64,000 nt of DNA from Bradyrhizobium elkanii USDA 76 (GTDB lineage Bacteria; Pseudomonadota; Alphaproteobacteria; Rhizobiales; Xanthobacteraceae). The stretch spans positions 2,658,001-2,722,000 of the forward strand of contig NZ_CP066356.1 in the NCBI RefSeq assembly GCF_023278185.1. Direction: 5' to 3'. The translations under genes were made by a program, and so were the position numbers. Below, piece by piece: positions 1,829 through 58,711 of the stretch; position 1 is the first letter of the stretch; every line of letters begins with the position of its first letter. The notes beneath the pieces are model-generated. The model saw nothing but the letters and a program-made list of their open reading frames with translations, had not been told where the DNA came from and did no database searches.

Positions 1829-1878
1829 TTGGTGGGCCCGGCAGGACTCGAACCTGCAACCAGACCGTTATGAGCGGC
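1829..1878 (-). repeat. attL: 50-bp copy of tRNA 3' part
   Basis: Fifty bases are identical, in the same orientation, to 58635-58684, which covers the 3' part of the complete tRNA gene at 58636-58711 (CCA end, T arm, variable loop and anticodon arm up to its 5' strand). Identity stops at 1879, where the remnant loses the D arm and acceptor 5' strand. It cannot encode a functional tRNA. This is the usual footprint of integrase-mediated insertion into a tRNA 3' end. The offset between copies is 56,806 bp. Confidence 0.92.
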
Positions 1879-1958
1879 GGGACAAGGGATGCGGTCGTTG
1901 ATTTTTCAGCATTTTTCGTGATGTTTGACCGCGTTTATCGCTCTTGGAGGGATCGTTT

Positions 1959-1978
1959 CTGGTGCGAAACTGGTGCGG
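1959..1978 (+). repeat. Paired CTGGTGCG motifs near attL
   Basis: CTGGTGCG occurs at 1959-1966 and again at 1970-1977, an 11-bp period, about 80 bp inside the island from attL. A matching pair lies about 50 bp inside attR at 58569-58589. Paired short repeats next to both ends could be integrase arm-binding sites. This is inferred from position only. Confidence 0.35.
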
Positions 1979-2020
1979 TTGGCCTGGCTTTCGATCCCGA
2001 CCGCTGAACGGCCTGGCTCG

Positions 2021-2080
2021 TAGGTTCGACTTCCACTCTCTCCGCCATTTGCACGATTTTGTACGCCAAACCACGATTTC
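2021..2080 (+). repeat. tRNA-Ser-like 3' end remnant, copy 1
   Basis: The segment has a T-loop-like GGTTCGA, then CACTCTCTCCGCCA, which is how many proteobacterial tRNA-Ser genes end, then about 35 bp of flank. The part 2034-2061 is identical to 11133-11160 apart from the first positions. The flank continues in the same order at 12615 onward, after an insertion sequence. The T stem no longer pairs, so it is a remnant, probably an attachment-site scar of an earlier element. Confidence 0.55.
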
Positions 2081-2271
2081 GAGCCCTCAATGGCGAACGA
2101 ACGCCGAGCGTTTTGCGCCACCGCTGTGGCCTCCGCTTTTCGGGCTTCCGCCGCGGCGAAGACGGCATCGTGGGAGGCGGCCGGATGCTCTTCGATCGCT
2201 CGGCCGTCAGCCTTCGGTCGCAAAATTATGCAGCGCGGAGGACACGGCCTCGTCGGCAGTTGAAGCCGGCC

Positions 2272-11121: not shown

Positions 11122-11162
11122 GATTGACTGACACTCTCTCCGCCATTTGCACGATTTTGCAG
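11122..11162 (+). repeat. tRNA-Ser-like 3' end remnant, copy 2 (left half)
   Basis: GATTGACTGACACTCTCTCC and the following CGCCATTTGCACGATTTTG match copy 1 at 2034-2061, and the first 23 bases match copy 3 at 23089-23111. The last 8 bases, TTTTGCAG, are the target-site duplication of the IS256-type element that begins at 11163. The rest of the copy continues at 12615. Confidence 0.6.
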
Positions 11163-13066: not shown

Positions 13067-13984
13067 TCAAGAAATCTGCGCACGGCCCGCTTCGGCCGGG
13101 CCGAGCGCCCGGCTCGCCTGCCGAACTTCGTCCAGGAACGCCTCCGCCAGGCGTGACAGTGGTTCGGCCTCCGACCAAAGCATGTGGGCTACTGCCGGCG
13201 TCCTGGGTGTGAAAGGCTTGATAACGAGGTCGTGGCTGCCGCCCTGGCGCGGAGAGAACGGATCGACGACGGCAGCGCCGACGCCGGCAGCCGCGAGCAC
13301 GCAGGCAGTTTTGCAGTATCGCACTTCCACGGTCGGCTGGAACGGCGCCCCGGCCTGGGCAAAGCTCTCGCGTATGGCTTCGCCCAATCGTGTTCCACGC
13401 TCCAGCCCGATGAAGGGCAGGCCGACCAGATCGGAGGCGGAAATCACGGGACGTTCGGCCAGCGGATGCTTCGGCGGCATTACGCAAACCATTTCGCCGG
13501 TGTGGACCACCTCATGCGCGATGCCTGGATGATGCGACAGGCCGAGCACGAAGCCAAGTTCGGCGACCCGGCTCGTCACCCCTTCGATAATTCCTTCATA
13601 GCGACGGACGTCGAAGAAGACCCTGGTCTGCCGCCGCTGACGCAGGAAGTCCGATAGTGCGGGCGGAATAATGCCGTAGGCGAGCGGCGGGGTCGCCACG
13701 ATCGACAGGAGTCCCGAACGGCATTCACGCAGGTCGCGCACCCGATTTTCAAGTTTGGCGTGAAGCGCAAAGATCGCCTCGCTCTCCTTGTAAAGCGCCA
13801 TAGCCTCTGATGTCGGGAACAGGCGGTTGTTGACCCGTTCGAACAGGGAAAAGCCGGCCTGCGCCTCCATTGCCTTCAGCGCATTGCTGACCGCGGGCTG
13901 CGACAGCGCCAGTTCGTCCGCCGCCGCGACTGTGGTTCGATGGCGGATGACTGCACGCAAGATCTCCAACTGGCGAAGGTTCAT
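13067..13984 (-). CDS. LysR-family transcriptional regulator
   Basis: A 305-residue protein of standard LysR length. The N-terminal winged helix-turn-helix (1-60) contains LEILRAVIRHRTTVAAADELALSQPAVSNALKAME. The substrate-binding domain (about 90-290) includes GIIPPALSDFL and GLGLSHHP-type segments. It is transcribed away from the two amidase genes, the usual layout in which LysR controls the divergent operon. It probably senses a substrate of the adjoining amide pathway. It ends with AEAGRAQIS. Confidence 0.92.
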   Translation of the reverse strand: MNLRQLEILRAVIRHRTTVAAADELALSQPAVSNALKAMEAQAGFSLFERVNNRLFPTSEAMALYKESEAIFALHAKLENRVRDLRECRSGLLSIVATPPLAYGIIPPALSDFLRQRRQTRVFFDVRRYEGIIEGVTSRVAELGFVLGLSHHPGIAHEVVHTGEMVCVMPPKHPLAERPVISASDLVGLPFIGLERGTRLGEAIRESFAQAGAPFQPTVEVRYCKTACVLAAAGVGAAVVDPFSPRQGGSHDLVIKPFTPRTPAVAHMLWSEAEPLSRLAEAFLDEVRQASRALGPAEAGRAQIS

Positions 13985-14014
13985 ATAAGTGCCGATTATG
14001 GTCTCACCCGAAAT

Positions 14015-14031
14015 ATCATAGCACGGGTGAT
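14015..14031. promoter_or_regulatory. Candidate LysR-type box
   Basis: The interrupted dyad ATCA-N9-TGAT sits 31 bp upstream of the LysR start and 105 bp before the first amidase start, between the divergent genes. This matches the position and general form of LysR binding sites. It is weak evidence because the dyad is short. Confidence 0.3.
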
Positions 14032-14135
14032 TGCAATTTGTGGGCCGTTTTCACCTAATCAACGACACAGCGGAGCGCTGACAGAGTGGGCCCTCCGCCT
14101 CCCGCATAAGCAATTCGCACAGATTGGAGGCAGTA

Positions 14136-15122
14136 TTGGCACGCATACTCCGCGCCGCGGCCGCCCAGATGGGGCAGACGCAGAAAGCGGATTCGCGAGA
14201 GCATACGCTTGGCCGGATGCTGGAGCTTCTGGAGACGGCTGCCGCGCGCGACGCGAGTCTAATCGTATTTCCCGAGTTGGCCTTCACCACCTTCTTCCCG
14301 CCGTGGTACCTCGAAGACGGCGCGCTGTACCAGTATTTCGAGCGCGGCATGCCCAATCCGGCCGTGCAGCGCCTGTTTGATCGTGCTCGGGCGCTTTGCG
14401 TCGGATTTTATATCGGCTACGCCGAACAGACTCCTGATGAACGACGCTACAACTGCTCGATCCTGGTCGATTGTGACGGTAAGATCCTTGGTCGCTATCG
14501 CAAGGTGCATCTGCCGGGTTCAGTTGAACCGCGCGCCGGCGCGCGCTACCAGCAGCTTGAAAAGCGCAACATCACGTATGGCGACCTTGGATTTCCGGCT
14601 TTCCGCGCCGGAGCGGATTGGCGTCACGCGATCATCGGCATGATGATTTGCAACGATCGCCGGTGGCCCGAGGCTTGGCGCGTGCTGGGCTTGCAGGGTG
14701 TCGAGTTGGTCTGCGTCGGCTACAATTCGGCGGCCTACGACCTCAACGGCGGCGCCACGGAAGATGCCGCGCTGCGCACCTTCCATTCAAAGCCGGTGAC
14801 GCAGGCCAATGCCTACATGAACGCGACTTGGGCAATCGCGGTTGCCAAGGCCGGTGACGAGGATGGTTCCGGATTGATCGGCGGCTCCTGCATCGTCGAT
14901 CCGAATGGCCGCATCGTCGCCGAAGCGGAGACGCTGGCGGATGAAGTCGTCGTCGCTGACCTCGATCTCGACCTTTGTCGCCAGGGCAAGGACAAGATGT
15001 TCAATTTTGCCACTCATCGACGGCCCGAGCAGTACTCCGTCATCACTGAACGCGCTGGTGTTATCGAGCCGACCGCGCTCAGTGCGATCGCGACGAATCT
15101 TTCGGAAGCACGAGGACGATAG
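14136..15122 (+). CDS. N-carbamoyl-D-amino acid hydrolase-like amidase (copy 1)
   Basis: A 328-residue carbon-nitrogen hydrolase. The catalytic triad is visible as E47 (FPELAFTTFFP), K123 (RYRKVHLPG) and C172 (MICNDRRWPE), positions almost equal to those of the Agrobacterium N-carbamoyl-D-amino acid hydrolase. Those enzymes release a D-amino acid, CO2 and ammonia from the N-carbamoyl form and work in hydantoin breakdown. The start is TTG at 14136, six bases after GGAGG and giving MARILRAAAAQMG, which aligns with the second copy. It is divergent from the LysR gene and lies upstream of copy 2. True substrate uncertain. Confidence 0.86.
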   Translation: MARILRAAAAQMGQTQKADSREHTLGRMLELLETAAARDASLIVFPELAFTTFFPPWYLEDGALYQYFERGMPNPAVQRLFDRARALCVGFYIGYAEQTPDERRYNCSILVDCDGKILGRYRKVHLPGSVEPRAGARYQQLEKRNITYGDLGFPAFRAGADWRHAIIGMMICNDRRWPEAWRVLGLQGVELVCVGYNSAAYDLNGGATEDAALRTFHSKPVTQANAYMNATWAIAVAKAGDEDGSGLIGGSCIVDPNGRIVAEAETLADEVVVADLDLDLCRQGKDKMFNFATHRRPEQYSVITERAGVIEPTALSAIATNLSEARGR

Positions 15123-26783: not shown

Positions 26784-26786
26784 CGG

Positions 26787-44811: not shown

Positions 44812-44826
44812 ATCGGAATTGCTCCA

Positions 44827-45405: not shown

Positions 45406-45480
45406 GTTGCTCAATCCGTCATTCTGCTGCGAATGTGTTAATCGCTTGCCGCCTCGCTCGCAACCTATCAACGGCGGGCA

Positions 45481-45505
45481 ACGGCCAGTCTTTGGGACTG
45501 GCCGT
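45481..45505. other. Perfect hairpin between SnoaL-like and TetR genes
   Basis: ACGGCCAGTC (45481-45490) pairs with GACTGGCCGT (45496-45505) around TTTGG, just downstream of the SnoaL-like stop. There is no T-run on the minus strand. It could attenuate transcription into the TetR gene or protect mRNA. Confidence 0.5.
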
Positions 45506-45512
45506 CATCCGG

Positions 45513-45989: not shown

Positions 45990-46011
45990 GGATGTTCCTC
46001 CAAGGTTGCAC

Positions 46012-46047
46012 TTGACAACGATACAGACAGGTCCGTATCGTTGTCAA
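46012..46047. promoter_or_regulatory. 36-bp palindromic operator with divergent promoters, site B
   Basis: Perfect 13-base arms TTGACAACGATAC (46012-46024) and GTATCGTTGTCAA (46035-46047) surround AGAC-AG-GTCC. Overall only one pair mismatches around a central AG. The outer TTGACA of each arm is an ideal -35 box, one for each strand, so two divergent promoters face each other across one operator. The centre shares ACAGACAGGT and GTATCGTT with site A. Confidence 0.82.
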
Positions 46048-46069
46048 TAACCGAACATGGAGTAGTACC

Positions 46070-47026
46070 TTGCCCGAGACCCAGTTGATGATGCACGCCA
46101 TCCAGCAGAATGAGTGGGGAGGTGTGGACCGGCTGAAACTTGTCGAAATGTCTCGCCCCATCCCTTTGCCGACAGAGGTGTTGGTCAAGGTGAAGGCGGC
46201 GGGAATCAATCCAGTCGACGTCTACACCGCGCAAGGCAAGGCCTACATGCGCGCGCTCAATCTTCCCTACGTTCCCGGGTGGGACGTCGCCGGTATTGTC
46301 GAGCAGGTGGGATACGGCACCACCCGCTTCAAGGTCGGCGATGAAGTTTTTGGGATGCCCTGGTTTCCGCGGGCAGCAAGCGCATACGCCGAATATCTGG
46401 TAGCACCGGCTCGGCATCTTGCGCTCAAACCGAAGCAGCTCAGCTTCGAGCAGGCCGCCGCACTTCCGCTTGCCGGGCTCACGGCATGGGAAATGTTGGT
46501 TGACATTGCCAACGTCGGACGTGGCGACAGGGTGCTGATCAATGGCGCAGGAGGCGGCGTAGGTCATCTCGCGGTTCAGATCGCCAAAGCGCGGGGCGCT
46601 CACGTCGTCGCCGTGGCAAGTGGCGCAAAGCATGGGTTTCTTCGAGAGCTTGGAGCTGATGCAACGATCGACTACACGACCGGCGCGGTTTCCGATCACG
46701 TCGATGATGCTGACGTGGTAATCGAGCTCGTCGGGGGTGAAATCTGCCTGCAGATGCTCAAGACGCTGCGCAGCGGCGGGCTGCTTATCAGCGCGCAGTC
46801 GGCGTGGGCGCCGCAGCTCAAGAACGAAGCCGAGAAGCTTGGGGTCAGAACCTCCTGGTATCTTGTCGAGCCTAACCATGTCGGTTTGGAAGCGCTGGCG
46901 CAAATGGCCGAGCAAGGTTCACTGAGGGTCGAAGTGACCGCGAGCTATCCGCTGGAGAACGCAGTCGAAGCCATGGAGCGAGTCGCTGGACGGCGGTCGA
47001 CCGGAAAGGTCGTGCTGACCGTTTGA
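46070..47026 (+). CDS. Quinone-oxidoreductase-like NADP-dependent dehydrogenase (QOR 1)
   Basis: A 318-residue medium-chain dehydrogenase/reductase lacking structural zinc cysteines. N-domain: EVLVKVKAAGINPVDVY and PYVPGWDVAGIVEQVG. The NADP-binding motif is NGAGGGVGHLAVQIAKARGA (about 148-167), and TGKVVLTV is the usual end. The TTG at 46070 has GGAG seven bases before it; ATG at 46088 is the alternative. Such enzymes reduce enones or quinones. It is under site B and divergent from the SnoaL-like gene. Confidence 0.92.
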   Translation: MPETQLMMHAIQQNEWGGVDRLKLVEMSRPIPLPTEVLVKVKAAGINPVDVYTAQGKAYMRALNLPYVPGWDVAGIVEQVGYGTTRFKVGDEVFGMPWFPRAASAYAEYLVAPARHLALKPKQLSFEQAAALPLAGLTAWEMLVDIANVGRGDRVLINGAGGGVGHLAVQIAKARGAHVVAVASGAKHGFLRELGADATIDYTTGAVSDHVDDADVVIELVGGEICLQMLKTLRSGGLLISAQSAWAPQLKNEAEKLGVRTSWYLVEPNHVGLEALAQMAEQGSLRVEVTASYPLENAVEAMERVAGRRSTGKVVLTV

Positions 47027-47140
47027 ATGATAGCAGCGTGCTCGAAACTGACGGAGCCGAAATCTGGCTTGTGCTGGCGTGGCTCCATAGGTTCTGCCGG
47101 CTCAACGCAAGACAACCACGATCCGAGTCAATCGATAACC

Positions 47141-47806
47141 ATGGCACCAACTAACTTCACGGCAGATGAGTGGTCCGCGAAGCGCGCGCGTGGGCGACCG
47201 CGTCAGTATGATCGTGCGCAGGTTCTGGACCGTACCATCGATGTGTTCCTGACGAGCGGCCTCGAAGGAGCCACTATGGCCGAGTTGAGCCGGGCGTCAG
47301 GTATCAATCGGCCGAGCTTACGTCTCGCCTTCGGAGCCAAAGAAAGCCTCGCTTGTGCTGCCGTCGAGCAGTATCGATGCAGGATTCACGCAGCCCTACG
47401 CCAGCTTTCCGGGGCGTCGCTGGAGGGAGCGGTACAAGCCATGTTCCGACGGTTTGTGTCGATTTACTTGTCGGAGGGAAAGGCAGCCGGGTGTCTGCTT
47501 GTCGTCCTCATGCCGGTAGTTGGCGGCCGAAATCCAACGGTGGGCGCTGCAATTGCAAAAGTGCAGCTTGAGATTCGTGATGCGGTAACGCTGCGCATGC
47601 GCGCTGCAAACTCCAAGGCGACGGCCGCAATCCTCACCAACGTGTGTATCGGCATGATTTACTGGCTGGCTGTGGAGGCGCGCGCGGGTGCCTCGTGCCA
47701 GGCCTTGAACGAGACTGCTGACGCATTCGCGAGACTGCTTCAGCAATGCAGCCGCTCTGGTGAACCGGCGGCCGGTTCTCTTATGGAAACTGATCTCTAT
47801 CGATAG
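47141..47806 (+). CDS. TetR/AcrR-family regulator 2
   Basis: A 221-residue protein. The N-terminus has a basic GRPRQYDRAQVL segment, then a helix-turn-helix in TMAELSRASGINRPSLRLAFGAKESL. The C-terminal domain contains AAGCLLVVLMPVVGG. It begins 114 bp after QOR 1 and runs in the same direction as the following lyase, GST, hydrolase and QOR 2 genes, with which it may form an operon. ATG at 47141 is supported by the family start; a longer frame is ignored. Confidence 0.88.
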   Translation: MAPTNFTADEWSAKRARGRPRQYDRAQVLDRTIDVFLTSGLEGATMAELSRASGINRPSLRLAFGAKESLACAAVEQYRCRIHAALRQLSGASLEGAVQAMFRRFVSIYLSEGKAAGCLLVVLMPVVGGRNPTVGAAIAKVQLEIRDAVTLRMRAANSKATAAILTNVCIGMIYWLAVEARAGASCQALNETADAFARLLQQCSRSGEPAAGSLMETDLYR

Positions 47807-47824
47807 GAAGCAAGGGGGCGAAAA

Positions 47825-48616
47825 ATGAAGACAAAGGACGCGAGGAGCCTGGCCGAGAGGTTCGCGCAACTGCATCGGGGGAGCAATCCGCTGGTTCTGG
47901 TGAATGCCTGGGATGCCTGGTCAGCGAATGTCTGTGAGGCCGCGGGCCATCAGGCGGTTGCGACGAGCAGCTTCTCGATTGCGGAATCACTAGGGTTCAA
48001 GGATGGACAGAATGTACCACTTGCACTGCTGCTCGCCGCTGTCGAGACGATCAGCCGCTCGGTATCGGTTCCGATAACGGTCGATTTCGAGGCGGGCTTC
48101 GGTGATACGCCGCAGCAGATCGGTGATGCCGTGGGGCGCGTAATCGAAGCGGGGGCGATCGGTATCAATATCGAGGACGGACTGTCACGAGGCGAACGCG
48201 TTCTGGTGAACGCCGAACAGCACTGTGAAAAGATCGCGCAGGCGCTAGCCGCGGCCAACCAGCGCGGTCTACCCTTGTTCATCAACGCTCGCTTTGATGG
48301 AGTCTTGCTCGAAAAGAAGCAGACAGACACCCTGATTAATGAAGCGATCAGGCGCGCCAGGCTTTATCAGACGGCAGGCGCAAGCGGACTTTTCGTACCC
48401 GGATTGACAGAGCTACCGCTCATCCAAAGGCTTGCCCGCTCGATCGACCTGCCCTTGAACATCATGATGATGCCGGGCGGCCCGTCCGTAGCCGAACTCG
48501 CATCTGCGGGTGTCTCGAGGGTAAGCCTTGGTCCCTGGCCGTTCGAATATGTCAGACGGGTGTTTCGGCGAACCGTCACGGAATTTGCGGACCAGTCTTC
48601 CGCCTTCTTCGCCTGA
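47825..48616 (+). CDS. Isocitrate lyase/PEP mutase-family protein
   Basis: A 263-residue alpha/beta-barrel protein. NPLVLVNAWDAWSANVCEAAG, PITVDFEAGFGD (metal-binding D/E), GAIGINIEDGL (E near 120) and PLFINARFDG (R) are the conserved active-site blocks. Members cleave or form C-C or P-C bonds in 2-hydroxy acids such as methylisocitrate-like or oxaloacetate-like compounds. It lacks the long insert and KKCGH motif of true isocitrate lyase. ATG at 47825 has AAGGGGG upstream; the gene is 18 bp after TetR 2. Confidence 0.9.
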   Translation: MKTKDARSLAERFAQLHRGSNPLVLVNAWDAWSANVCEAAGHQAVATSSFSIAESLGFKDGQNVPLALLLAAVETISRSVSVPITVDFEAGFGDTPQQIGDAVGRVIEAGAIGINIEDGLSRGERVLVNAEQHCEKIAQALAAANQRGLPLFINARFDGVLLEKKQTDTLINEAIRRARLYQTAGASGLFVPGLTELPLIQRLARSIDLPLNIMMMPGGPSVAELASAGVSRVSLGPWPFEYVRRVFRRTVTEFADQSSAFFA

Positions 48617-48638
48617 ACCAGTGCGGCTGAGCGGGTCG

Positions 48639-49250
48639 ATGGACAGGTTCTATTTCACCAGCTTCTCGTGCTCGATTGCGTCACTGGCGCTATTGATCGA
48701 GTGTCAGCATGTTTTCGAGCCGGTTCGACTGCAGATGACCGCGGAAGGCGCGGGCGAGGAGAGCTTTGCCGCTCTCAGTCCGCTTCGACAGGTGCCGGTT
48801 CTTCATGCCGGGGCTACCGTCGTGCGAGAGACTGGAGCGATCTTTGAGTACCTCTCACTCCAGCACAGGGGCTCAGCGTGCTTCGCGCGAACGGCTGACG
48901 AGCGGATCGCCGCGCTGCACTGGATCGGGTTTCTGGGCGGAACAGTGCATCCGCTCTTCAGGCTGTTGTTCAGGCCTGACCGGTTCATCGGCAACGAGGA
49001 GCAGGATCAGGGGAGCGCGCGGGCGCAGACGCGGCAATACCTTCTCCGCGTTCTTGTGGTGATCGAAAGCCATTTGGCGCAACGTGATTGGGTTCTGGAT
49101 CGCAGGACGGCCATCGACTTCTACCTGTTTGTCTTCACGAGATGGGTCGGATTGCTTCGCATCCCGCTCAGCCCGGCTTTGAAGGATTTTCATCATCGGG
49201 TGGAATCGCTGCCCGCAATGCAGTTGGCGCTTGCCATCGAATCAAGGTGA
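48639..49250 (+). CDS. Glutathione S-transferase family protein (GST 2)
   Basis: A 203-residue protein. The N-domain shows FYFTSFSCSIASLALLIECQ, the cis-proline LRQVPVLHAGA and RETGAIFEYLS for glutathione binding. The C-domain has LDRRTAIDFYLFVFTRW. It is only distantly like GST 1. ATG at 48639 is chosen by family start, 22 bp after the lyase stop; the frame also opens earlier inside the lyase. Probably part of the same detoxification operon. Confidence 0.88.
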   Translation: MDRFYFTSFSCSIASLALLIECQHVFEPVRLQMTAEGAGEESFAALSPLRQVPVLHAGATVVRETGAIFEYLSLQHRGSACFARTADERIAALHWIGFLGGTVHPLFRLLFRPDRFIGNEEQDQGSARAQTRQYLLRVLVVIESHLAQRDWVLDRRTAIDFYLFVFTRWVGLLRIPLSPALKDFHHRVESLPAMQLALAIESR

Positions 49251-49283
49251 ACCTGGCTCTATCGGTCATCACAGGAGAGCGAC

Positions 49284-50027
49284 ATGCGTAAGCAGAACTT
49301 TGTTCTTGTGCACGGCGCCTGGCATGGCGGGTGGTGCTGGAGCCGAACCGTCGACTGCTTGAATCCATACAACGAATTTGCAGTGTTTGCGCCAACGCTG
49401 ACTGGTCTGGGCGAACGGGGGCATCTGACATCGCCGATACCCACCTTGGATACCCATATCGAGGACATTGTTCGTGTAATCACCTACAATGATTTGCACG
49501 ACGTGGTCCTGGTCGGCCATTCTTATGCCGGCATGGTAGTGACAGGGGTTGCGGATTTCCTTGGTCCACGCCTAAAGCACATCGTCTATCTCGATGCTGC
49601 GGTACCAGAAGAAGGGGATGACTTCGCATCACATGCTCCTGGAACAACGGCGGAAGAGGCCGCGAAGAAGCGCGAGTGGTTCATGTCACTTGCCAAAGAC
49701 GGCGTGTGGATCGGGCCGCCCGATCCCAACCTGGCCGGCGTCAGCGAGCCGACCGACGTCGATTGGCTGAAGCGGATGTTGACGCCGCATCCGGTTGCGA
49801 CGTGGTTGCAACCGGTACGGCTGCGGAACGGAGGGGCCGCAGGGATTCCGAAAACCTATATCCTGGCGACGAACCCGGCCGCCGAGATCATGGGTTATCC
49901 GAGACAGGCCGAACGCGCAAAGCGCGGAGGCGATTGGCGGTTCCGATCCATTGATTGCGGTCATGACACCATGGTCGTGAGGCCGAAGGAAACGGCCGAG
50001 CTGCTTGTCGAAGCCGCGACCGCCTGA
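49284..50027 (+). CDS. Alpha/beta hydrolase
   Basis: A 247-residue protein of the hydroxynitrile-lyase/salicylate-esterase-like group. The oxyanion segment is VLVHGAWHGGWCW, the nucleophile is S in GHSYAGMV (about residue 80), and the histidine is in DCGHDTMV near 230. The acid residue is probably in the preceding strand. ATG at 49284 follows AGGAGAG. It may hydrolyse an ester or cleave a carbon-carbon bond in the pathway formed with the neighbouring lyase and dehydrogenases. Confidence 0.92.
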   Translation: MRKQNFVLVHGAWHGGWCWSRTVDCLNPYNEFAVFAPTLTGLGERGHLTSPIPTLDTHIEDIVRVITYNDLHDVVLVGHSYAGMVVTGVADFLGPRLKHIVYLDAAVPEEGDDFASHAPGTTAEEAAKKREWFMSLAKDGVWIGPPDPNLAGVSEPTDVDWLKRMLTPHPVATWLQPVRLRNGGAAGIPKTYILATNPAAEIMGYPRQAERAKRGGDWRFRSIDCGHDTMVVRPKETAELLVEAATA

Positions 50028-50048
50028 CTGGGCACGTGTGAGGCAAAC

Positions 50049-51059
50049 ATGAAAGCTTACGCCTACGTCGACCGCATTGCGCTCGAAAGCCTGGTTGAGA
50101 TTGATCAGCCGGATCCCGCGCCTGGCGAGTTCGACATTGTGGTCGCGATGAAGGCTGCGGCCTTGAACTATCGCGACCTCGCCATCGCCGACGGCGACTA
50201 TCACATCGAAGTGCGGCCGCCGCTCATTCCAGTGTCGGATGGCGCCGGCGAAGTCGTTGCGGTCGGCAAATCCGTCCGGCGCTTCCGCGTCGGGGACAGG
50301 GTGTGTGCCGCCTATCTTCCGGACTGGAAGGATGGTCCGATCCGGCGAGAGGCGGCAGCCCGGCGGCTAGGGGGACCCAGCAGCGGTGTTCTGCGAGAGC
50401 TGATGTGCGCGTCCGAGGAGGACTTCGTCATGGCGCCCCGGCATCTTTCGTTCGAAGAGGCCGCAACGCTTCCGGTTTCTTCGGTGACCGCCTGGCAGTC
50501 CTTGTTTGTGAATGGATCAGTGAAGCCTGGTGACAACGTACTTGTGCAGGGGACTGGCGGCGTCTCGATTGCAGCGATCCAGCTGGCGCGATCGGCCGGC
50601 GCGCGGATCATTTCGGTTGTTCGAAACGAAAAGCACCGGGAAGCCCTGCAATGCCTCGGAGCGTCGGACGTGCTGCTTTCCGGAAACCCAAATTGGCATC
50701 GCCAAGTATTTGAGCTCACGAGCGGCATCGGCGCCAACGTCATCGTCAATGTGGCAGGTGGGGAGACAGTGTCTAAAAGTCTGCTGGCCGCTTCTGGCGC
50801 AGCGACAATTCACCTCGTCGGATACGCCTCCGGCAAGATAATCACATTCGACATCTTCGAGGCTATTCGCAGAGCTGCGAAATTCCTTGTCGCCGCAGCG
50901 GGCAGCCGAGCAAGCTTCGAGGCGCTCGTTAGGGTACTCGAGCTGGAAGAAATTCATCCGTTGGTCGCGCAGCGTTTTCCTGTCCAGAACCACGGGGAGG
51001 CGATGGATAGCTTGCGACGGGGCGGGCACATTGGAAAACTCGTCCTGACATTTGGTTGA
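50049..51059 (+). CDS. Zinc-type alcohol dehydrogenase/quinone oxidoreductase-like protein (QOR 2)
   Basis: A 336-residue medium-chain dehydrogenase. MKAAALNYRDLAIADGDY and PPLIPVSDGAGEVVAVG belong to the N-domain. The cofactor site reads VQGTGGVSIAAIQLARSAGA, and the end is GHIGKLVLTFG. Catalytic-zinc cysteines are absent. It starts 21 bp after the hydrolase, last gene of the 47.1-51.1 kb run. The substrate is unknown. Confidence 0.92.
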   Translation: MKAYAYVDRIALESLVEIDQPDPAPGEFDIVVAMKAAALNYRDLAIADGDYHIEVRPPLIPVSDGAGEVVAVGKSVRRFRVGDRVCAAYLPDWKDGPIRREAAARRLGGPSSGVLRELMCASEEDFVMAPRHLSFEEAATLPVSSVTAWQSLFVNGSVKPGDNVLVQGTGGVSIAAIQLARSAGARIISVVRNEKHREALQCLGASDVLLSGNPNWHRQVFELTSGIGANVIVNVAGGETVSKSLLAASGAATIHLVGYASGKIITFDIFEAIRRAAKFLVAAAGSRASFEALVRVLELEEIHPLVAQRFPVQNHGEAMDSLRRGGHIGKLVLTFG

Positions 51060-51186
51060 TCGTTGACAGAAGCGCAATGACCGCGACACGGTGCTCCGCG
51101 TGAGCGCAAGCTAAGCTTGCGCCGATCATGGCCGGCCGCTACTTTTTGAACACTTGGCAAGCGCAAGAAATGGTCGAGACCGATCC

Positions 51187-51831
51187 TCACGAAGCTCGCT
51201 CATCGCGCCGCGCACCGTCCATGAAAATGCTGACAGCAGAGCGCACAGCCGCGTCGGCTTCGGCGGGAGTGGGACGAGACCGCAATCCTAACACTACCTG
51301 AAGATGGAGGTCGTCGCGGATCATCCCGAGGAAGTGCTCAGCAAGCCTCTCGCACTCGCCCTCCACCAGCCCCCATTTCTTCGCGTTCTCGCGAAGGACA
51401 GCTCCAAGCCTTGCGCTCGCCCGCCCTGGCCCCGCAACGAAGAAGGTCTTACCGAGTCCTGGAAAACGCGCGCCTTCGCCCACCACGGTGCGATAGAGCT
51501 GAAGCGCTTCAGGAGACATCACAACGTCAATGTACCGGCTGCCGACCTCGTAAAGAGTCGATGCAAGGTCGTGCCGACGGAAGCTTCCCTCCGCTAGCGG
51601 TGCCATGGCGCGAGCCGTGATCTCCTCCACTATCGTCGCGAACAGCTGCTCCTTGTTGCCAAAATAGCTATAGATCGTCCGCTTGGACCCTCCGACCTTC
51701 GTAATGACCTCGTCAATGCTCGCTCCGGCAAAGCCAGAGCGGAAGAAGACTTCCGTTGCGGCTTCGAGAAACTCCGCGCGCCGCGCGTCCTTTTTCCCGG
51801 AAGCACTCTGAGGACCATCAACTTCAGTCAA
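51187..51831 (-). CDS. TetR/AcrR-family regulator 3
   Basis: A 214-residue protein. The helix-turn-helix is FLEAATEVFFRSGFAGASIDEVI and VGGSKRTIYSYFGNKEQLFATI (about 18-65). The C-terminal AefR-like domain contains YIDVVMSPEALQLYRTVVGEG. It lies divergent to the EmrAB-type pump genes, with a 16-bp palindrome in the shared control region. It is likely a drug-responsive repressor of the pump. Confidence 0.92.
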   Translation of the reverse strand: MTEVDGPQSASGKKDARRAEFLEAATEVFFRSGFAGASIDEVITKVGGSKRTIYSYFGNKEQLFATIVEEITARAMAPLAEGSFRRHDLASTLYEVGSRYIDVVMSPEALQLYRTVVGEGARFPGLGKTFFVAGPGRASARLGAVLRENAKKWGLVEGECERLAEHFLGMIRDDLHLQVVLGLRSRPTPAEADAAVRSAVSIFMDGARRDERAS

Positions 51832-51896
51832 AATCGTACACCTTTCTACCCCGCCTCTGACTCGCAGCTCGAACTTCGAACCATATCGATCTTAAC

Positions 51897-51933
51897 TTGA
51901 CCGTGTTTCATCGGTTAGGTACGGTACCGTACC
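51897..51933. promoter_or_regulatory. Promoter and operator of the EmrAB-type pump
   Basis: TTGACC (51897-51902) and TACGGT (51920-51925) are a -35/-10 pair with 17-bp spacing. The perfect 16-bp palindrome GGTACGGTACCGTACC (51918-51933) covers the -10 box. It lies between the TetR gene and the pump and so is very probably its operator. Confidence 0.72.
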
Positions 51934-51969
51934 GTAGCATATCTGATGACAAAAGCAAGGAAGCCTCGG

Positions 51970-53058
51970 ATGGCCCGAATGGGAAAGCGCCAGATTGCAA
52001 TGGGAGCGACCGCATTTGCGGTTGCGGCTGGCTTTGGTTGGGTTCGGTGGGAAAACGCGCGTTCCCGGGAGAGCACCGACAACGCCTATGTCCATGGAGA
52101 TATTACTGCGATCGCCCCAAAGGTCTCAGGCTATGTCTCCGAGGTTCTCGTCGAGGATAATCAGTCCATCGCGGCGGGAGCCATACTTGTCCGCATCGAC
52201 GACAGGGATTATCGCACGCAGCGGGATCGCGCCGCCGCCGCAGTCGCTCAGGTCGAGGCAGCGATCGAGAACCTTGCGCGGCGCAAAGCGCTGCAGCGCG
52301 CCGTCGTTCGAGAAGCCGAGGCCTCATCACAGATGGCGCAGGCGGACTTTGAGCTTGCGGACCGCCAGTTCGGGCGAACGAGCCGCCTCATGCAAACAGG
52401 CGCAACGTCCGAAAGTGTACATGACGCCGCCGTCGCCGGTCAGAGCAGAGCGAGAGCCGCGCTGACACGCAGCCAGGCCGCCATCACAGCCGCCCGCGAG
52501 CAGCAGACCGTCCTAGAATCGGAATCTGGTCAGCTCTCAGCGCGGCTGGCCGAAGCGCGAGCCGGCCTTGCTCTCTCCGAAATTGCTCTTTCCGAGACCG
52601 TCATTCGCGCGCCCATCGCAGGCGTGGTTGGCAATCGCCGCGTGAGGGTTGGTGAGTTCGTGCGCCCTGGAGGAGGCCTAGTTTCGATTGTGCCGGTGGA
52701 TAGCGTCTGGGTCGTTGCGAACTTCAAGGAAACGCAGATTTCGCGCATGCGTGTTGGGCAGCAGGCCGAAGTCACAGTCGACGGCTATCCGGGCGCAAGG
52801 GTTCGCGGCACGATCGACAGTCTCTCGCCAGGCAGTGGTGCGGCCTTCAGTCTTATTCCGCCAGATAATGCGACCGGAAATTTCGTTCGAGTTGTTCAGC
52901 GCGTCCCAGTCAAGATCCGTCTTGATCGAGAGAATGCCCTTCTCGGCCGGCTCGTACCGGGGATGTCTGTCGATGTAACGGTGGAGCTGCCGGCGCGAGC
53001 ATCTGTGGAGCGGACGGCTCAAGATCCTGTGGTATCGCTCTTTCGCGGGGCGAACTAG
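51970..53058 (+). CDS. HlyD/EmrA-type membrane fusion protein
   Basis: A 362-residue adaptor from ATG at 51970, which has AAGGAAG at six bases; ATG at 51946 is an alternative giving 370 residues. One N-terminal membrane helix (QIAMGATAFAVAAGFGWV) precedes the lipoyl half STDNAYVHGDITAIAPKVSGYV. An alpha-helical hairpin (about 90-200) with many alanine and glutamate residues follows, then the second half IRAPIAGVVGNRRVRVGEFV. It would link the inner-membrane pump to an outer-membrane channel. No TolC-type gene is adjacent. Confidence 0.92.
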   Translation: MARMGKRQIAMGATAFAVAAGFGWVRWENARSRESTDNAYVHGDITAIAPKVSGYVSEVLVEDNQSIAAGAILVRIDDRDYRTQRDRAAAAVAQVEAAIENLARRKALQRAVVREAEASSQMAQADFELADRQFGRTSRLMQTGATSESVHDAAVAGQSRARAALTRSQAAITAAREQQTVLESESGQLSARLAEARAGLALSEIALSETVIRAPIAGVVGNRRVRVGEFVRPGGGLVSIVPVDSVWVVANFKETQISRMRVGQQAEVTVDGYPGARVRGTIDSLSPGSGAAFSLIPPDNATGNFVRVVQRVPVKIRLDRENALLGRLVPGMSVDVTVELPARASVERTAQDPVVSLFRGAN

Positions 53059-53060
53059 CG

Positions 53061-54659
53061 ATGAGCAGTACGAGCAGAACCGTCGGCGTCGTGCCGCTAG
53101 CTAAAGGCTCCGCCCAGGCTTGGATCGTACTTTTTCTACTGACCCTCGCCACCGCGATGGACGCGATCAACAGCTCGGTGCTGGTGATAGCTCGCGGCCA
53201 CATCATGGGTACCGCTCACGCTACGCCCGATGAGGTCGCATGGGTCAATATGGCCTACCTCGCGTCAAAACTCACCGGATTTCCCGTTGCTGCATGGATA
53301 TGCTTACGCGTTTCTTCGGGCGCTCAAATTCTTGCCGCGACTTCAGTCTTACTAGCTGCGTCCGTGGGCTGTGCGTTGACCGAGCATCTCGGCACACTCA
53401 TCGTGTGGCGCATCATCCAGGGGCTCGCTGGTGCGCTCCTTCTTGTCTGTAGCCAACTCCTCCTTTTCCAACTGTTCACGCGGCGACAGCAAGGCGTCGT
53501 CCAAGCGCTCTTTGCGTTCAGCGTCATTATGGCTCCCACGACGTTGACACCTGTACTGCAGGGCTGGGCCGTCGATACAGGAGACTGGTCCTGGATCTTC
53601 CTCGCGAATATTCCGCTCGGATTGTGCGGCTTGGCCGCTCCGCTGCTATTGCCATCCGATCGGGTAGCCGACGATCAAAAGGAGCCATTTGACTGGATGG
53701 GCGTATGTCTCCTGGCGGCTGGAATGACCGCCATCGTGTTTGTCACCCAAGAGGGCAGTCGACACAATTGGTTTGACGAGCCGGAAATCGTAAAGGTCAC
53801 CATCGCCGGGGCGATCGCAATGACCGCCTTCATTGGATGGTTATTTGCATTACAGCACCGTGGTTCCCTGATTAAATTTGCACCATTCCGCGACGAACAC
53901 TTCAGTTTCGGCTTCCTCGTGAGTTTCGTTGCCGGATGCGCGCTGTTCGGTAGTGCTTCTATCATTCCGGCCTTCGCGACGAACGTCTTGGCGATGTCTC
54001 CAACCTACGCAGGCCTTCTGCTCTTGCCGAGCGGATTGCTCGTATGCAGCGGCCTACTCCTTGCCGGCTCGACCATTCAATTCTTCTCGCTTGATCCGAC
54101 GCGGCCGATACCGATCGGCATTCTGTGCTTCATGGTGGCGATGTGGATGATGTCGGGATCGACGTCCCAAAGCGGCTTGCCCGATCTCGTACCTGACCTT
54201 CTCCTACGCGGTTTTGGTCTCGGTCTCCTGTTCGTATCCCTTACGCTCGTGACGTTGAACGGACTCAGCGGCGTTGCGCTCGCCCATGGCATTGCCGTGT
54301 TCAATATGGCTCGTCAACTGGGCGGGCAAATCGGCATCGCCTGGCTTGGAACGTACCTAGATCATCAGAACGCGCTGAATCGCACGGTCCTGTCTCAGCA
54401 CATCGATGCGGCCAATCCGGCTTTCATTCAGCACCGGGACGCCATTGAGGCGACGCTGATCGCGAGAGGATTCAACCCGGAAAGTGTCGCAGAAGCTGCC
54501 GTCGCCATCATCCAGCAGCATCTTTCGCAGCAGGTTGCGACACTATCGTTCAACGAGTGTTTCCTTGCGGTCGCCCTATTATTTCTCGGCGCTGCACCGA
54601 TTCTGATCCTATGCAAGGTGCTGCTGCTTCGCTATAGGCCTCATGGACACGCGCAATGA
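53061..54659 (+). CDS. DHA2-family MFS drug exporter (EmrB type)
   Basis: A 532-residue, 14-helix major facilitator. ATAMDAINSSVLVIARGHIMG is the first-helix region with the acidic residue typical of DHA2. WRIIQGLAGALLL is motif-like, and PTTLTPVLQGWAVDTGDWSWIFLANIPLG is motif C/WRWIF-type, given here in two parts by position 155-185. It begins 2 bp after the fusion-protein stop. It would use the proton gradient to expel hydrophobic compounds. Confidence 0.93.
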   Translation: MSSTSRTVGVVPLAKGSAQAWIVLFLLTLATAMDAINSSVLVIARGHIMGTAHATPDEVAWVNMAYLASKLTGFPVAAWICLRVSSGAQILAATSVLLAASVGCALTEHLGTLIVWRIIQGLAGALLLVCSQLLLFQLFTRRQQGVVQALFAFSVIMAPTTLTPVLQGWAVDTGDWSWIFLANIPLGLCGLAAPLLLPSDRVADDQKEPFDWMGVCLLAAGMTAIVFVTQEGSRHNWFDEPEIVKVTIAGAIAMTAFIGWLFALQHRGSLIKFAPFRDEHFSFGFLVSFVAGCALFGSASIIPAFATNVLAMSPTYAGLLLLPSGLLVCSGLLLAGSTIQFFSLDPTRPIPIGILCFMVAMWMMSGSTSQSGLPDLVPDLLLRGFGLGLLFVSLTLVTLNGLSGVALAHGIAVFNMARQLGGQIGIAWLGTYLDHQNALNRTVLSQHIDAANPAFIQHRDAIEATLIARGFNPESVAEAAVAIIQQHLSQQVATLSFNECFLAVALLFLGAAPILILCKVLLLRYRPHGHAQ

Positions 54660-55238
54660 ACATGGATGTCGGATTGCTACACTTGTTGCGATTCAGCGTC
54701 TGCTGTCGGCAGGTAAGTTTTGCGCAAACTGCGTTTTGGTTGAGCGGCGGGAGCTAACCTGACCTCGAATAGGGCAGGGCTCTTCCTCAGCGGTTCGGCC
54801 AAAGGCACCTTCGGGTGAAATGCACCAAAACTCTTTGCCCTTCGCCGTAACTCTTTGAAATCACGGCAAAAGCGTCCGCCCTCCGAGCGCGCCATAATCC
54901 AAAGCGCAGATACGTTGCCGCTAATGGGCTTCACACCGGCCGAACATTCGGCTCAGAATTACGCCCGAGATGTGGCCGCTTGATACGTCTGAGCGACGGT
55001 GAAAAGGGACTGAGTGCCAAGCTACATGTCTGCATATCGAGCGATAGGGGACAACCGCCCTTGGTCGGACACTGTCGCTTTTGACCCATACCGGAAGCCG
55101 GCATCTGTGCTACGACGCGGCTGGCCGTGTCCAACTCAGACCGTCGACCACCAGGACCCGGCGAGCACACTTGATGTGTTGCTTTTACTTTCCTTACCGG
55201 CGGCTTATTCTTCGTGCTCCAAGTGTTGCTAGGGTTCG
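54660..55238. other. Intergenic stretch without a supported gene
   Basis: A minus-strand frame at 54677-54934 contains RSEGGRFCRDFKELRRR and PLAEPLRKSPALFEVRLAP, which may be a fragment of a repeated island sequence. No start signal supports it. Nothing else stands out. Confidence 0.4.
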
Positions 55239-56834
55239 ATGACCGTAGACCGCCTAAAGGGATTGGCAGTGCGCTATCTTTTCGGGGAGTACGCATTCGA
55301 CGTCGACCGGCGCGAGGTACATCGTGGGGCAGACATCGTCTCCGTCGCGCCCCAGGTTTTTGATCTGATCAATTACCTACTCCGCAACCGGGAACGAGTT
55401 GTCAGCAAAGACGACCTCATCAAAGCCATTTGGAATGGGCGCAGCGTATCCGACGCGGCTCTGACAACCCGCCTGAATGCCGCCCGGATTGCGATCGGCG
55501 ATTCCGGCGAGGAACAGCGCTTCATCAAGACACTGCCGCGCAAGGGCTTCCGTTTCGTCGGAGCAGTCCAGGAAGCGCTGGACCCGTTGGGGACGCAGCA
55601 AGTTACCGAAAACCGGCAGGTAGAACTTCAACAACCCGACCTTGCGCTCCCCGACAAACCCTCCATCGCTGTGCTGCCATTTGAGAACATGAGCGGCGAT
55701 CCAGAGCATGAATTCTTCGCCGAAGGCATGGTGGAAGAGATCATCACTGCGCTCTCGCGCTTCAAGTCGCTGTTCGTCATCGCGCGCAATTCGAGCTTTA
55801 CCTTCAAGGGCCGGGCGGTCGATATCAAGGAAGTCGGGCGAAGGCTCGGCGTGCGGTATGTCCTCGGGGGGGCTGTGCGGAAGGCGTCGGGGAAAGTTCG
55901 CATCACAGGACAGTTGATCGATGCGGTTACTGGCGCGCATCTATGGGCGGACCGGTTTGAGCGTGACCTGATCGACGTCTTCTCTCTTCAAGACGAAGTT
56001 ACCATCGCCGTCGTCTCGGCTATTCAGCCAAAGATGCTTCAAACAGAAATTGCAATGGCGACGCGGCGGCGACCGGAGAACCTCACTGCCTATGACTGTT
56101 TTCTCCGAGCCATGCACCAATACCACCTGACGACCCGCGAAAGTTTGGCCGAGGCGATCAAGCTGGCTCATCGCGCTTTGGAGCTAGACCCGAGGTTCGG
56201 CTTTGCGGCGGCTTTGGCAGGTGACTGTCATGCGAGCAACGTCGCTCTAGGCTATGCCAACGATCCCCAGTTCGACCGCGAGGAGGCAGTGCGGCTCGCT
56301 CGTTTGGCATTGAGGATCGATGATGGTGATCCGGACACGCTGTCAAGGATTGCCGTAATCTTGGCGGGCACGGTCGGCGATAGCGAAGCCGAGATCGAAA
56401 TGGCTGACCGGGCGGTCGCGCTCAACCCAAACTCATGGCGCACTTGGAATAACAGAGGCTGGGTCTATGTATTGGCGGGACTTCCAGAGGAAGCAATGCG
56501 AAGCTTTGAACGCGCCATTCGCATGAGCCCCGTGGACCCGCTGCTGCACATGACGTTTATCGGCATTGGGAATGCCCTTATGAGGCTTCGCCGCCTTGAC
56601 GAGGCGATCGTAGCATTTAAGAAAGCGCTTCGGCACAATCCCTCCTTCATGCCAGCTTACCGCGGCCTCGCGTCCGCCTTCGCCCAGCTAGGACGCGACG
56701 CTGAGGCGCACGAGGCGGCGGCGCGCGTGCTTGAGATCGATCCCGCCTTTACAGTATCGGCGTGGATCGCCCAGGTCCCCAAACACTCAAAACGGTTTGT
56801 TGAGGGTCTTCGGAAAGCCGGATTGCCCGAATAG
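55239..56834 (+). CDS. CadC-like winged-helix/TPR regulator (copy 2)
   Basis: A 531-residue protein. The winged helix (about 10-110) has FDLINYLLRNRERVVSKDDLIKAIW and SDAALTTRLNAARIAIG. The TolB-like part (about 140-260) has SIAVLPFENMSGDPEHEFFAEG and HLWADRFERD. TPR helices run to the end. It aligns over its length with copy 1 at 32856-34436, and the GTG at 55269 would give the same start as that copy (VRYLFGEYAFD). No membrane helix is visible. Target genes unknown. Confidence 0.88.
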   Translation: MTVDRLKGLAVRYLFGEYAFDVDRREVHRGADIVSVAPQVFDLINYLLRNRERVVSKDDLIKAIWNGRSVSDAALTTRLNAARIAIGDSGEEQRFIKTLPRKGFRFVGAVQEALDPLGTQQVTENRQVELQQPDLALPDKPSIAVLPFENMSGDPEHEFFAEGMVEEIITALSRFKSLFVIARNSSFTFKGRAVDIKEVGRRLGVRYVLGGAVRKASGKVRITGQLIDAVTGAHLWADRFERDLIDVFSLQDEVTIAVVSAIQPKMLQTEIAMATRRRPENLTAYDCFLRAMHQYHLTTRESLAEAIKLAHRALELDPRFGFAAALAGDCHASNVALGYANDPQFDREEAVRLARLALRIDDGDPDTLSRIAVILAGTVGDSEAEIEMADRAVALNPNSWRTWNNRGWVYVLAGLPEEAMRSFERAIRMSPVDPLLHMTFIGIGNALMRLRRLDEAIVAFKKALRHNPSFMPAYRGLASAFAQLGRDAEAHEAAARVLEIDPAFTVSAWIAQVPKHSKRFVEGLRKAGLPE

Positions 56835-57013
56835 CTCGCTGCGCAGGATGGACGAGGCGATTGAATGACTGCTTCTTGCCCTCAGCCGATGCTTGCTCAG
56901 AATGCCGCTATGTCCGCTGTCGGGAGGAAAGCCGACCAAGGTCGAGCGGGCGTCGCGGTCCGCTTGTGACCCAACTCGGACATGCAGACTTCGCTGCGCC
57001 GCTACGCGCGTGC

Positions 57014-58183
57014 TTAGCACGGCAGAGTCCTAGCATGCCGGTAGCGAAAGTAACGCGCGACTCCGAAATAGGTGGGGCCTTGCGATACTCTTTGCACCGT
57101 CGGATGCGGCCCCTCGTTTGAGGAAGCTGTGGGCGTTTCCTGCCGAGGCGCTCGATGGCTCCGTGATGGGAGGTCAGGACAAAGGACGAGCTTGCCCTCA
57201 AGACCGCCTGCTTCGAGGCGACGGTGAGCCTCGGCGACCTGGTCGAAGGAGATCCGCCCGGCAACGCGCGGCCGGATGGCACCCGTTGCCAGAAGCTCGA
57301 ATAATCGCTGCAAGTCCTCCTTGAACCAGGTGGGATGTCGCGCTCGCATCGCATTGACTGAGTAAAAGCGGGCACGCTTGCCACCAGGCAACAGCCTCCA
57401 CAGGTACAGGCGCGCAATCTCCATCACGATAGGAAGCATGCGACGCTGTGCCTGCACGCTCGCGGAGAAGCCAATGGCGCAGAGCAGACCGCCGCGCTTG
57501 AGCGCCGCGTATGAGCGGCGATAGCCGTCTTCGCCAACGCCGTCGACGATGATGTCGAACCCGCCCGGCAGCACGCGCGTGAAGTCCTCGCGCCGGTAGT
57601 CGATCGGCGTTGCGCCTAGCTCGCGGACGAGCGCTGTGTGTTCGCCGCGAGCGGTGCCCCACAGCTCGAGGCCGGCCAGCCTCCCGAGCACGAGCAGCGC
57701 CTGCCCGACGGCGCCGGCAGCGCCATGCACGAGCACGCGCTGGCCTCGCCGCACCCGGGCGGCACGGTGCAGAAGCTGGTATGCGGTCGTCCAGCTCAAG
57801 ATCAGCGTGGCCGCTTCCGCCGCGTCGAGACCCTCCGGCACGCGGGCCACGTCGTTTGCCCGGAGCGTACGATAGTCGGCGTTGGATCCGACCACCGTCA
57901 TGTCGGCCACGCGGTTGCCAATCTGAAGGTTGCGCACGCCTTCGCCGAGCTGATCGATTTCCCCGACGACGTCGTAGCCCATCACGAACGGCGGCCTGAG
58001 GCGCATCGTTTGAGGGTATAAGTGGCGCCTGATCAACACCTCAGTGTAGTTGAGGCTCGACGCGAGTACACGAACCCGCACCTCGCCCAGTCCGGCGGAC
58101 GGCAGGGGAGCGTCGACGACCTCCAGCGTCTCGGGATCACCGAAGCTCCTGACTTGAACAACTCGATTGCGGGGCTCAATCAT
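57014..58183 (-). CDS. Zinc-binding-type dehydrogenase (QOR 3)
   Basis: A 389-residue medium-chain reductase. VVQVRSFGDPETLEVVDAPL and PFVMGYDVVGEIDQLGEGV form the N-domain, and VHGAAGAVGQALLVLGRLAG is the cofactor motif. GLEGKLVLCPDLPSR is the normal family end near residue 335. Another 45 or so residues of low-complexity sequence follow, so the original stop may have been lost. ATG at 58183 has AAGGAG at ideal spacing. It is the last gene before the island's right end. Confidence 0.88.
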   Translation of the reverse strand: MIEPRNRVVQVRSFGDPETLEVVDAPLPSAGLGEVRVRVLASSLNYTEVLIRRHLYPQTMRLRPPFVMGYDVVGEIDQLGEGVRNLQIGNRVADMTVVGSNADYRTLRANDVARVPEGLDAAEAATLILSWTTAYQLLHRAARVRRGQRVLVHGAAGAVGQALLVLGRLAGLELWGTARGEHTALVRELGATPIDYRREDFTRVLPGGFDIIVDGVGEDGYRRSYAALKRGGLLCAIGFSASVQAQRRMLPIVMEIARLYLWRLLPGGKRARFYSVNAMRARHPTWFKEDLQRLFELLATGAIRPRVAGRISFDQVAEAHRRLEAGGLEGKLVLCPDLPSRSHRAPRQETPTASSNEGPHPTVQRVSQGPTYFGVARYFRYRHARTLPC

Positions 58184-58634
58184 AAGCGATCTCCTTGCGT
58201 TCTCGTAGTCCAGAGCAAGGATAGGCAGAGCTCCGCACACTTTGCGGACTTATCGCCACGTCGGCAAGAATATGGCCAGCCTGAAATTCTGCCTTGATTC
58301 AGCTCAAATCAGCCAGTCCGCGCGAACCATGGCCCAGTAGAAGCCGAAGGTCCGCTACTGGGCCCTTAGCGGACTTGATTGGCGTTATGGCTGACTTCCG
58401 CTTTGCCGGAGCAGCCGACTTCACCGCCAAAGGGAGAGACTCCTTCTGTCTGTGCCTCTGCGTCGGCCGAAGGCGACGATCGTGGATGGCACTGTCGCGT
58501 CCACTCATCAGCAGGTGAGCTTGCCTGGCGTCGTTGCGAACTTTCGTGTGAACGAAAACAGCACGTATCTGGTGCGGTTTCTGGTGCAGTCGTCGCGCTA
58601 GGGGCAATGAGAACCCCGTAAGATATTGATCTCA
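58184..58634. other. Right-end intergenic region of the island
   Basis: No gene supported on either strand. It holds the paired CTGGTGC motifs at 58569-58589. Short frames here read through to attR and have no recognisable content. Confidence 0.5.
58569..58589 (+). repeat. Paired CTGGTGC motifs near attR
   Basis: CTGGTGCGG at 58569-58577 and CTGGTGCAG at 58581-58589, a 12-bp period, about 46 bp inside the island from attR. The pair resembles that at 1959-1978 near attL. Confidence 0.35.
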
Positions 58635-58684
58635 TTGGTGGGCCCGGCAGGACTCGAACCTGCAACCAGACCGTTATGAGCGGC
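58635..58684 (-). repeat. attR: 50-bp repeat inside the tRNA gene
   Basis: Identical over 50 bp to 1829-1878, in the same orientation. It covers the 3' part of the intact tRNA. Bases outside it differ, though 18 or so bp on the island side are still similar (AAGATATTGATCTCA against AAGTATTTGATTTCC). Confidence 0.92.
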
Positions 58685-58711
58685 CGGCTCTAACCATTGA
58701 GCTACAGGCCC
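58636..58711 (-). tRNA. tRNA with CAT anticodon, probably tRNA-Ile2 (k2C)
   Basis: A full cloverleaf of 76 nt with encoded CCA. The acceptor is GGGCCTG/CGGGCCC with one G-U pair. The D stem is GCTC/GAGC, the anticodon stem GGCCG/CGGTC with loop CTCATAA, and the T stem GCAGG/CCTGC. The CAT anticodon alone fits tRNA-Met or tRNA-Ile2. C4-G69 and C5-G68 in the acceptor are known determinants for the lysidine synthase TilS and favour tRNA-Ile2. The gene is intact although an island is inserted at its 3' end. Confidence 0.95.

Follow-up and report, generated by a model that had tools for sequence, protein, structure and literature searches.

Does the perfect 50-bp repeat at this locus mark the two edges of a single island, or a joint inside a larger arrangement? 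The window (the whole 64,000-nt stretch of the Bradyrhizobium elkanii USDA 76 genome that we analyzed) carries this repeat at 1829-1878 and 58635-58684, as an earlier note had reported. These 50 nt are the perfect part of a 53-nt direct repeat with one mismatch (1829-1881 / 58635-58687), and a 50-nt match is expected by chance ~1.6e-21 times per 64 kb. The right copy overlaps the single tRNA of the window, which ARAGORN placed on the minus strand at 58636-58711 with the anticodon CAT, and Rfam at 58639-58711. Among the best-scoring E. coli matches listed, six of eight rows were annotated as tRNA-Ile and two as tRNA-Arg; the top match, annotated as tRNA-Ile, was likewise labeled Met(cat) by ARAGORN. 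Because of these annotations, we regard the gene as very probably encoding tRNA-Ile2 (CAU, lysidine type), whose CAU anticodon is presumably read with lysidine.

58636..58711, minus strand: intact CAT tRNA, the integration target (ARAGORN, Rfam, E. coli match)
58635..58684, no strand: att3, right junction of the tract, comprising the tRNA 3′ part as far as the anticodon stem-loop
1829..1878, no strand: att2, an internal att copy at the joint of a 4.4-kb and a 56.8-kb unit

The intact tRNA on one side and its 3′ fragment on the other, in like orientation, are the marks of a tRNA-integrated island. The earlier note had proposed tRNA-targeted integration, with the island downstream of the tRNA 3′ end, and the orientation of the repeat, the corresponding sites in relatives and the loci of the integrase family all agree with it.

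Attachment-site copies and the units between them

The host genome (9.52 Mb, two contigs) contains a third perfect copy of the 48-nt core at C1:2655427, which corresponds to -2573 in window coordinates (negative positions lie to the left of the window) and lies 4402 bp left of the left repeat. The three perfect cores, at -2573 (att1), 1829 (att2) and 58635 (att3), share one orientation, and we found no fourth copy in the surrounding 304 kb with up to 16 mismatches in 48. The copy at -2573 therefore makes 1829 an internal junction, and 1-1828 belongs to a 4.4-kb unit. Several att copies thus bound several units at one site, as in a tandem accretion array, and the 56.8-kb island of the earlier note is the unit of this stack that adjoins the tRNA.

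1..1828, plus strand: right-hand portion of the 4.4-kb unit bounded by att1 (-2573) and att2, not backbone
605-1609: HupE/UreJ gene, in the 4.4-kb unit
1879..1983, no strand: left arm of the 56.8-kb unit, in which CTGGTGCG occurs twice, at 1959 and 1970

By comparison with relatives, the foreign tract would measure ~72.2 kb, starting near -13.5 kb and ending at 58634, and would comprise units of ~11.0, 4.4 and 56.8 kb. Their GC contents are 0.603, 0.585 (between -2573 and 1828) and 0.605, versus 0.655 in the right flank and 0.654 in the left. The 4.4-kb unit has att on both sides and no PF00589 match, and it also carries a DUF3604 gene outside the window. DNA similar to the left arm at 1879-1983 follows att copies in four other genomes (G178, G195, G261 and G107; 77-94% identity, core included).

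We consider it very probable that foreign segments, mostly integrase-less, decayed and CIME-like, are stacked here in tandem at the Bradyrhizobium tRNA-Ile(CAU) gene. Tyrosine integrases that recognize the 3′ part of the tRNA would have inserted elements one after another, each insertion keeping the tRNA whole and leaving one 3′ copy at the junction. Later loss of the integrases would account for the 3′ stumps next to the core, and the elements would also have been left with IS scars and a mosaic cargo. To the left of the 56.8-kb unit would come the 4.4-kb unit and then the 11-kb unit, which would start at about -13.5 kb with an IS21-type fragment. The sequence in which the units arrived is inferred, and so is their present state, either fixed or dependent for movement on functions supplied in trans. 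Tandem accretion of ICEs and CIMEs was reportedly described by Pavlovic in 2004.

The same site in relatives and the outer left edge

Among 146 genomes of the genus, nine relatives (G118, G004, G120, G041, G138, G048, G064, G145 and G014) have a right flank that matches without a break into the tRNA. In one of these, the more distant relative G041, the site is empty: the gene whose end is at -30925 in the host (the left gene) is separated from the intact tRNA by ~50 bp. The empty site predicted earlier, in which 1-1828 is joined directly to the tRNA, was seen in none of 15 relatives, judged on the stretches left of the tRNA, some of which are short draft contigs.

The closest relative by the left gene among 265 genomes is G178, whose flanks are ~95% identical to those of the host. 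After the left gene, G178 shares the 17.4 kb from -30930 to -13525 with the host at 95.6% identity, and a 30-nt att remnant lies 9 bp past the end of this shared DNA. Its stretch contains two further partial att copies, one of 49 nt at 31548 and one of 33 nt at 42530; the intact tRNA is at 44570, and the right flank is 95.8% identical. Between the shared left DNA and the tRNA, G178 holds 24.8 kb of other DNA, in which host-like DNA beyond the att arm was confined to pieces of 129-515 nt at 68-75% identity, matching other parts of the region. Att arrays are thus found at this site in G178, and also in G261.

Nine relatives had both the left flank and the tRNA within reach. Measured from the point where the shared left flank ends, the tRNA was ~36 bp away in G041, 1.5 kb in G043, 11.8 kb in G261, 25.4 kb in G076, 40.2 kb in G118, 53.2 kb in G004, 60.3 kb in G107 and 61.8 kb in G068; for G178 the distance was 42.3 kb, counted from the left gene. 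The left gene is gone except for its first bases in G118, G004 and G107. The retrieved stretches of G205, G242, G258, G174 and G195 end before the tRNA, and G242 has an att copy ~40 bp past the last shared base. The left flank was absent from the retrieved stretches of G120, G138, G048, G064, G145 and G014.

These comparisons bear on where the tract begins. Judged by G178, the backbone would extend to about -13.5 kb; G041 would place its end at -30.9 kb. We rejected -30.9 kb as the edge itself and kept it as an outer bound, because G178 shares -30.9 to -13.5 kb with the host; the same 17.4 kb are absent between the left gene and the tRNA in G041. The first 2.6 kb of -30930 to -13525 have kin in 38 of the 146 genomes, and parts of the 11-kb unit were found in three (the host is counted in both figures). 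No att copy was seen at the outer left edge of the host near -13.5 kb, and this edge is therefore unplaced to the base. An IS21-type fragment, named by eye, occupies the place of the outer att remnant of G178.

-13415 to -13167 (L004): IS21-type fragment, resembling the start of a transposase gene (named by eye)

Accordingly, the island edges that the earlier note had given to the base stand on the right, where att3 and the tRNA are exact and conserved backbone comes next. They do not stand on the left, where the repeat had been taken for the outer edge: a third core lies further out at -2573, and the shared DNA ends only at -13.5 or -30.9 kb. The described change from backbone outside to foreign content inside likewise holds for the inside, while 1-1828 turned out to be part of another unit. 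A perfect tRNA repeat may mark the internal joint of a stack rather than the edge of an island. The comparison is clear: between the same flanks, one relative has nothing inserted, the closest relative carries different DNA, and the host has a stack. The succession and fate of arriving islands thereby become testable at this site.

The site is much used in Bradyrhizobium. Allowing up to two mismatches, a 46-nt core occurred in two or more copies in 89 of 146 genomes, in one copy in 53 and in none in four, the host and intact tRNAs being counted; two or more copies are no proof of islands, because a second intact tRNA copy is present in several genomes. G020, G005 and G122 each have two or three intact copies, separated by hundreds of kb, and nodA is located between some of these copies. 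This location of nodA is insufficient to establish the tRNA as a boundary of a symICE in the three genomes; the symICE of B. japonicum USDA 6 is described, in the available excerpt, as a tRNA-Val type. Some Bradyrhizobium plasmids (L290 and others) were also found to carry either the tRNA or the right end of the island together with its att core, and plasmids may be carriers of attachment sites for these islands.

Integrases, gene stumps and rival explanations

The genome has 27 PF00589 matches, and only one of them lies inside the tract; the next most similar integrase in the genome is 39% identical to it.

23190..24419, minus strand: tyrosine integrase of 409 aa, intact frame, in the middle of the 56.8-kb unit (PF00589, PHROGs integrase)
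58537..58633, plus strand: 3′ stump of a tRNA-Ile-type tyrosine integrase gene with a repeated CTGGTGCGG-like motif, its body gone

We found 64 related integrase loci in public genomes and examined 37. An intact CAT tRNA lay 30-79 bp beyond the integrase match in 15 of the 37, and tRNA-Pro lay beside the integrase in four (L149, L150, L151 and L159). The wider family is not tied to one tRNA, and its targets have switched. In a tree of 36 examined loci and the window protein, the window integrase formed a clade with five Bradyrhizobium proteins (support 100/98). The sister clade comprised 20 rows, 14 of which carry the tRNA or its start. Two rows of the tree, in which stops were set to X, have very long branches, and one of them (L145) belongs to the clade of the window integrase. 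Another clade mate, L123, has a reversed core copy ~1 kb from its integrase. We did not accept the window integrase as the cognate of the 56.8-kb unit, given that it is 21 kb from the left end of the unit and that its five clade mates all lack an adjacent tRNA. An intact cognate integrase, as expected of an autonomous integrase-bearing island, was found neither at the tRNA nor at a unit end.

What the junctions retain instead are ends of integrase genes. A nucleotide model of the canonical integrase 3′ end, run on the 304 kb (nhmmer, inclusion threshold), gave three matches above threshold, one to the left of att3 (E 2.3e-14), one to the left of att1 (E 1e-12) and one in the window integrase (E 5.7e-12). 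The next match (E 0.012) was the motif in the left arm, at 1949-1983. The model found no stump left of att2, where a resemblance was suspected by eye only. Judged by this model, two of the three junctions (att1 and att3) keep the last codons of a tRNA-Ile integrase gene without its body.

These stumps bear on how the att copies arose. They might stem from segmental duplication, or from homologous recombination between tRNA copies, with no site-specific integrase at work; two or three intact tRNA copies do exist in some genomes. However, the duplication reaches no further than the anticodon stem-loop, the sequences around the three copies diverge outside the arms, and two of the three have an integrase stump at the usual distance, so that we judge this origin very unlikely. 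Hardly tenable at all is a single 56.8-kb island in the tRNA, with 1-1828 as old backbone and the copy at -2573 as an unrelated scar. The 50-bp repeat is indeed perfect and correctly oriented, as such an island would have it. Yet the GC of 0.585 between -2573 and 1828 speaks against old backbone, relatives hold other DNA at the site, and their shared DNA stops at -13.5 or -30.9 kb. We dropped the single island, which the earlier note had favored, in view of the third core and of the G178 and G041 sites that contradict it.

The stack could also have been built elsewhere, on a plasmid or a larger ICE, say, and have arrived in one or two events with its internal att copies already in place. The right ends with att core, and the tRNA copies, on Bradyrhizobium plasmids are in keeping with such a route, and plasmid p195_1 has an SRAP gene like that of the host ~10 kb from an end of this kind. 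Against it, none of the records and genomes examined contained the whole stack (the genus search for cargo covered the DNA up to 32.6 kb), and the plasmid stretch has only its end and a short block in common with the host. We regard assembly elsewhere as possible, if rather unlikely, and prefer stepwise accretion at the tRNA itself.

The integrase-less units might be more than decayed remains. They could form a recurrent non-autonomous class in which the end of the integrase gene is kept as a predicted arm-type binding site, formed by the CTGGTGCGG repeats beside the core. Integrase-less units would then stay movable by any visiting tRNA-Ile integrase. We inspected 90 distinct core copies, a non-random set of 30 search-returned loci and 60 hand-picked among the matches listed, with one duplicate row dropped and the host att1 included. 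There were 59 intact tRNAs and 31 partial copies; a full-length family integrase was in place at four, a 3′ stump at nine and an integrase fragment at seven, and nothing was recognized at 70. Exact CTGGTGCGG lay 45-58 nt from att in 11 of 13 stumps, which had themselves been picked by a model containing the motif. It was also found at 20-75 nt in five of the 70 stump-less copies, versus 0.34% of random windows of the region; its absence from the other 65 counts against the arm-site reading. When stumps were aligned on the first motif copy, their match to the full-length consensus was 0.37 there versus 0.52 upstream and 0.61 downstream, and the first motif copy is therefore not preferentially kept. 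Conservation over the whole stump was set aside as uninformative, the 33 nt after the motif being equal in stumps (0.357) and full genes (0.368). We consider a retained arm-type site unlikely on these counts.

Known systems, nested repeats and cargo

Decayed elements that accreted in tandem at a single 3′ RNA target are already known, as the available parts of PMC5704250 and PMC3146451 set out. CIMEs and the tandem accretion of ICEs and CIMEs are reviewed in PMC5704250; by the excerpt available, CIMEs resemble the host units in keeping att sites, in lacking integration genes at their ends and in standing in tandem at one 3′ tRNA target. Unlike them, the host stack, known from its sequence alone, has no visible outer left att, and its 56.8-kb unit holds an off-clade integrase. 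In Dehalococcoides, many islands lie in tandem at ssrA, bounded by 3′-end repeats, and 15 are without an integration module (PMC3146451, as excerpted). This arrangement is like that of the host at a single RNA gene, but the recombinase there is a serine recombinase and the target a tmRNA, whereas the host stack involves a tyrosine integrase and tRNA-Ile.

Within the genus, monopartite symbiosis ICEs at tRNA-Ile are described as ~0.6-0.9 Mb in size with nod and nif genes (excerpts of PMC9239051 and PMC9174649). tRNA-Ile is also given as a target of Bradyrhizobium symbiosis islands in the accessible text of PMC11837538, and remnants are reported in some strains. The host stack shares with these ICEs the genus and the tRNA-Ile target, although the published gene may not be this CAU gene. 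It differs from the symICEs, as these excerpts portray them, in its tract of ~72 kb and in having nodA elsewhere; the one nodA match of the genome is at C1:7122765, outside the tract. In Bradyrhizobium cosmicum, a tRNA gene with a partial duplication bounds a photosynthesis gene cluster (PMC7656271, in part), which is similar in genus and in the partial tRNA duplication that marks an island, and different in cargo. We found no prior description of the present stack in the Bradyrhizobium literature covered, a coverage that leaves out most subscription journals.

The content of the 56.8-kb unit is a mosaic. In its left part, a second pair of repeats is related to another tRNA.

2034..2061, plus strand: first copy of a 28-nt direct repeat, formed by the 3′ end of a tRNA-Ser(GGA)-like gene
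11132..11159, plus strand: second copy of the 28-nt tRNA-Ser-like repeat
~11163-12614: IS256-type element, Mutator-family transposase at 11264-12460, inserted directly beside the second 28-nt repeat

These tRNA-Ser-like repeats are possibly a second, nested attachment system. The left copy also retains T-arm-like sequence, and a third core copy of 13 nt lies ~80 bp beyond the stop of the window integrase. From the position of this 13-nt core, tRNA-Ser is a candidate target of that integrase. ARAGORN found no tRNA-Ser at the five clade-mate loci, and the 13-mer occurred within one mismatch in only two of the five (L122 and L124). The IS256-type element has imperfect terminal repeats and an 8-bp target duplication.

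Between 1.9 and 11 kb, none of six ORFs scanned gave a Pfam match, and the DNA is poorly coding. Among 45 window ORFs scanned with Pfam, we found no relaxase or T4SS family and no symbiosis family. The recognizable cargo falls into three blocks.

13067..22606, no strand: LysR regulator, two nitrilase-like hydrolases and an oligopeptide-type ABC transporter
25480..28742, no strand: DUF736, SRAP and Ku genes
41806..58183, no strand: GSTs, TetR regulators, zinc dehydrogenases, a PEP mutase-like protein and an HlyD/EmrB-type efflux pair

The transporter block (~17104-22585) is present as an unbroken stretch of at least 5.4 kb, 82-89% identical, in 84 of the 158 genomes that were scored (99 more had no score). 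By comparison of coordinates it is far from the tRNA in G020 and G005, and the island seems to have captured an ordinary Bradyrhizobium operon here. The SRAP and Ku genes occur together on a B. elkanii plasmid record as well. An 832-aa protein has no Pfam match, and its relatives are partly named autotransporter-associated beta-strand protein. The stretch that contains its gene (29929-32600, at least 2.7 kb) is 96% identical in G059, G039 and G055, above the other island blocks listed, and this identity suggests a recent transfer of the stretch.
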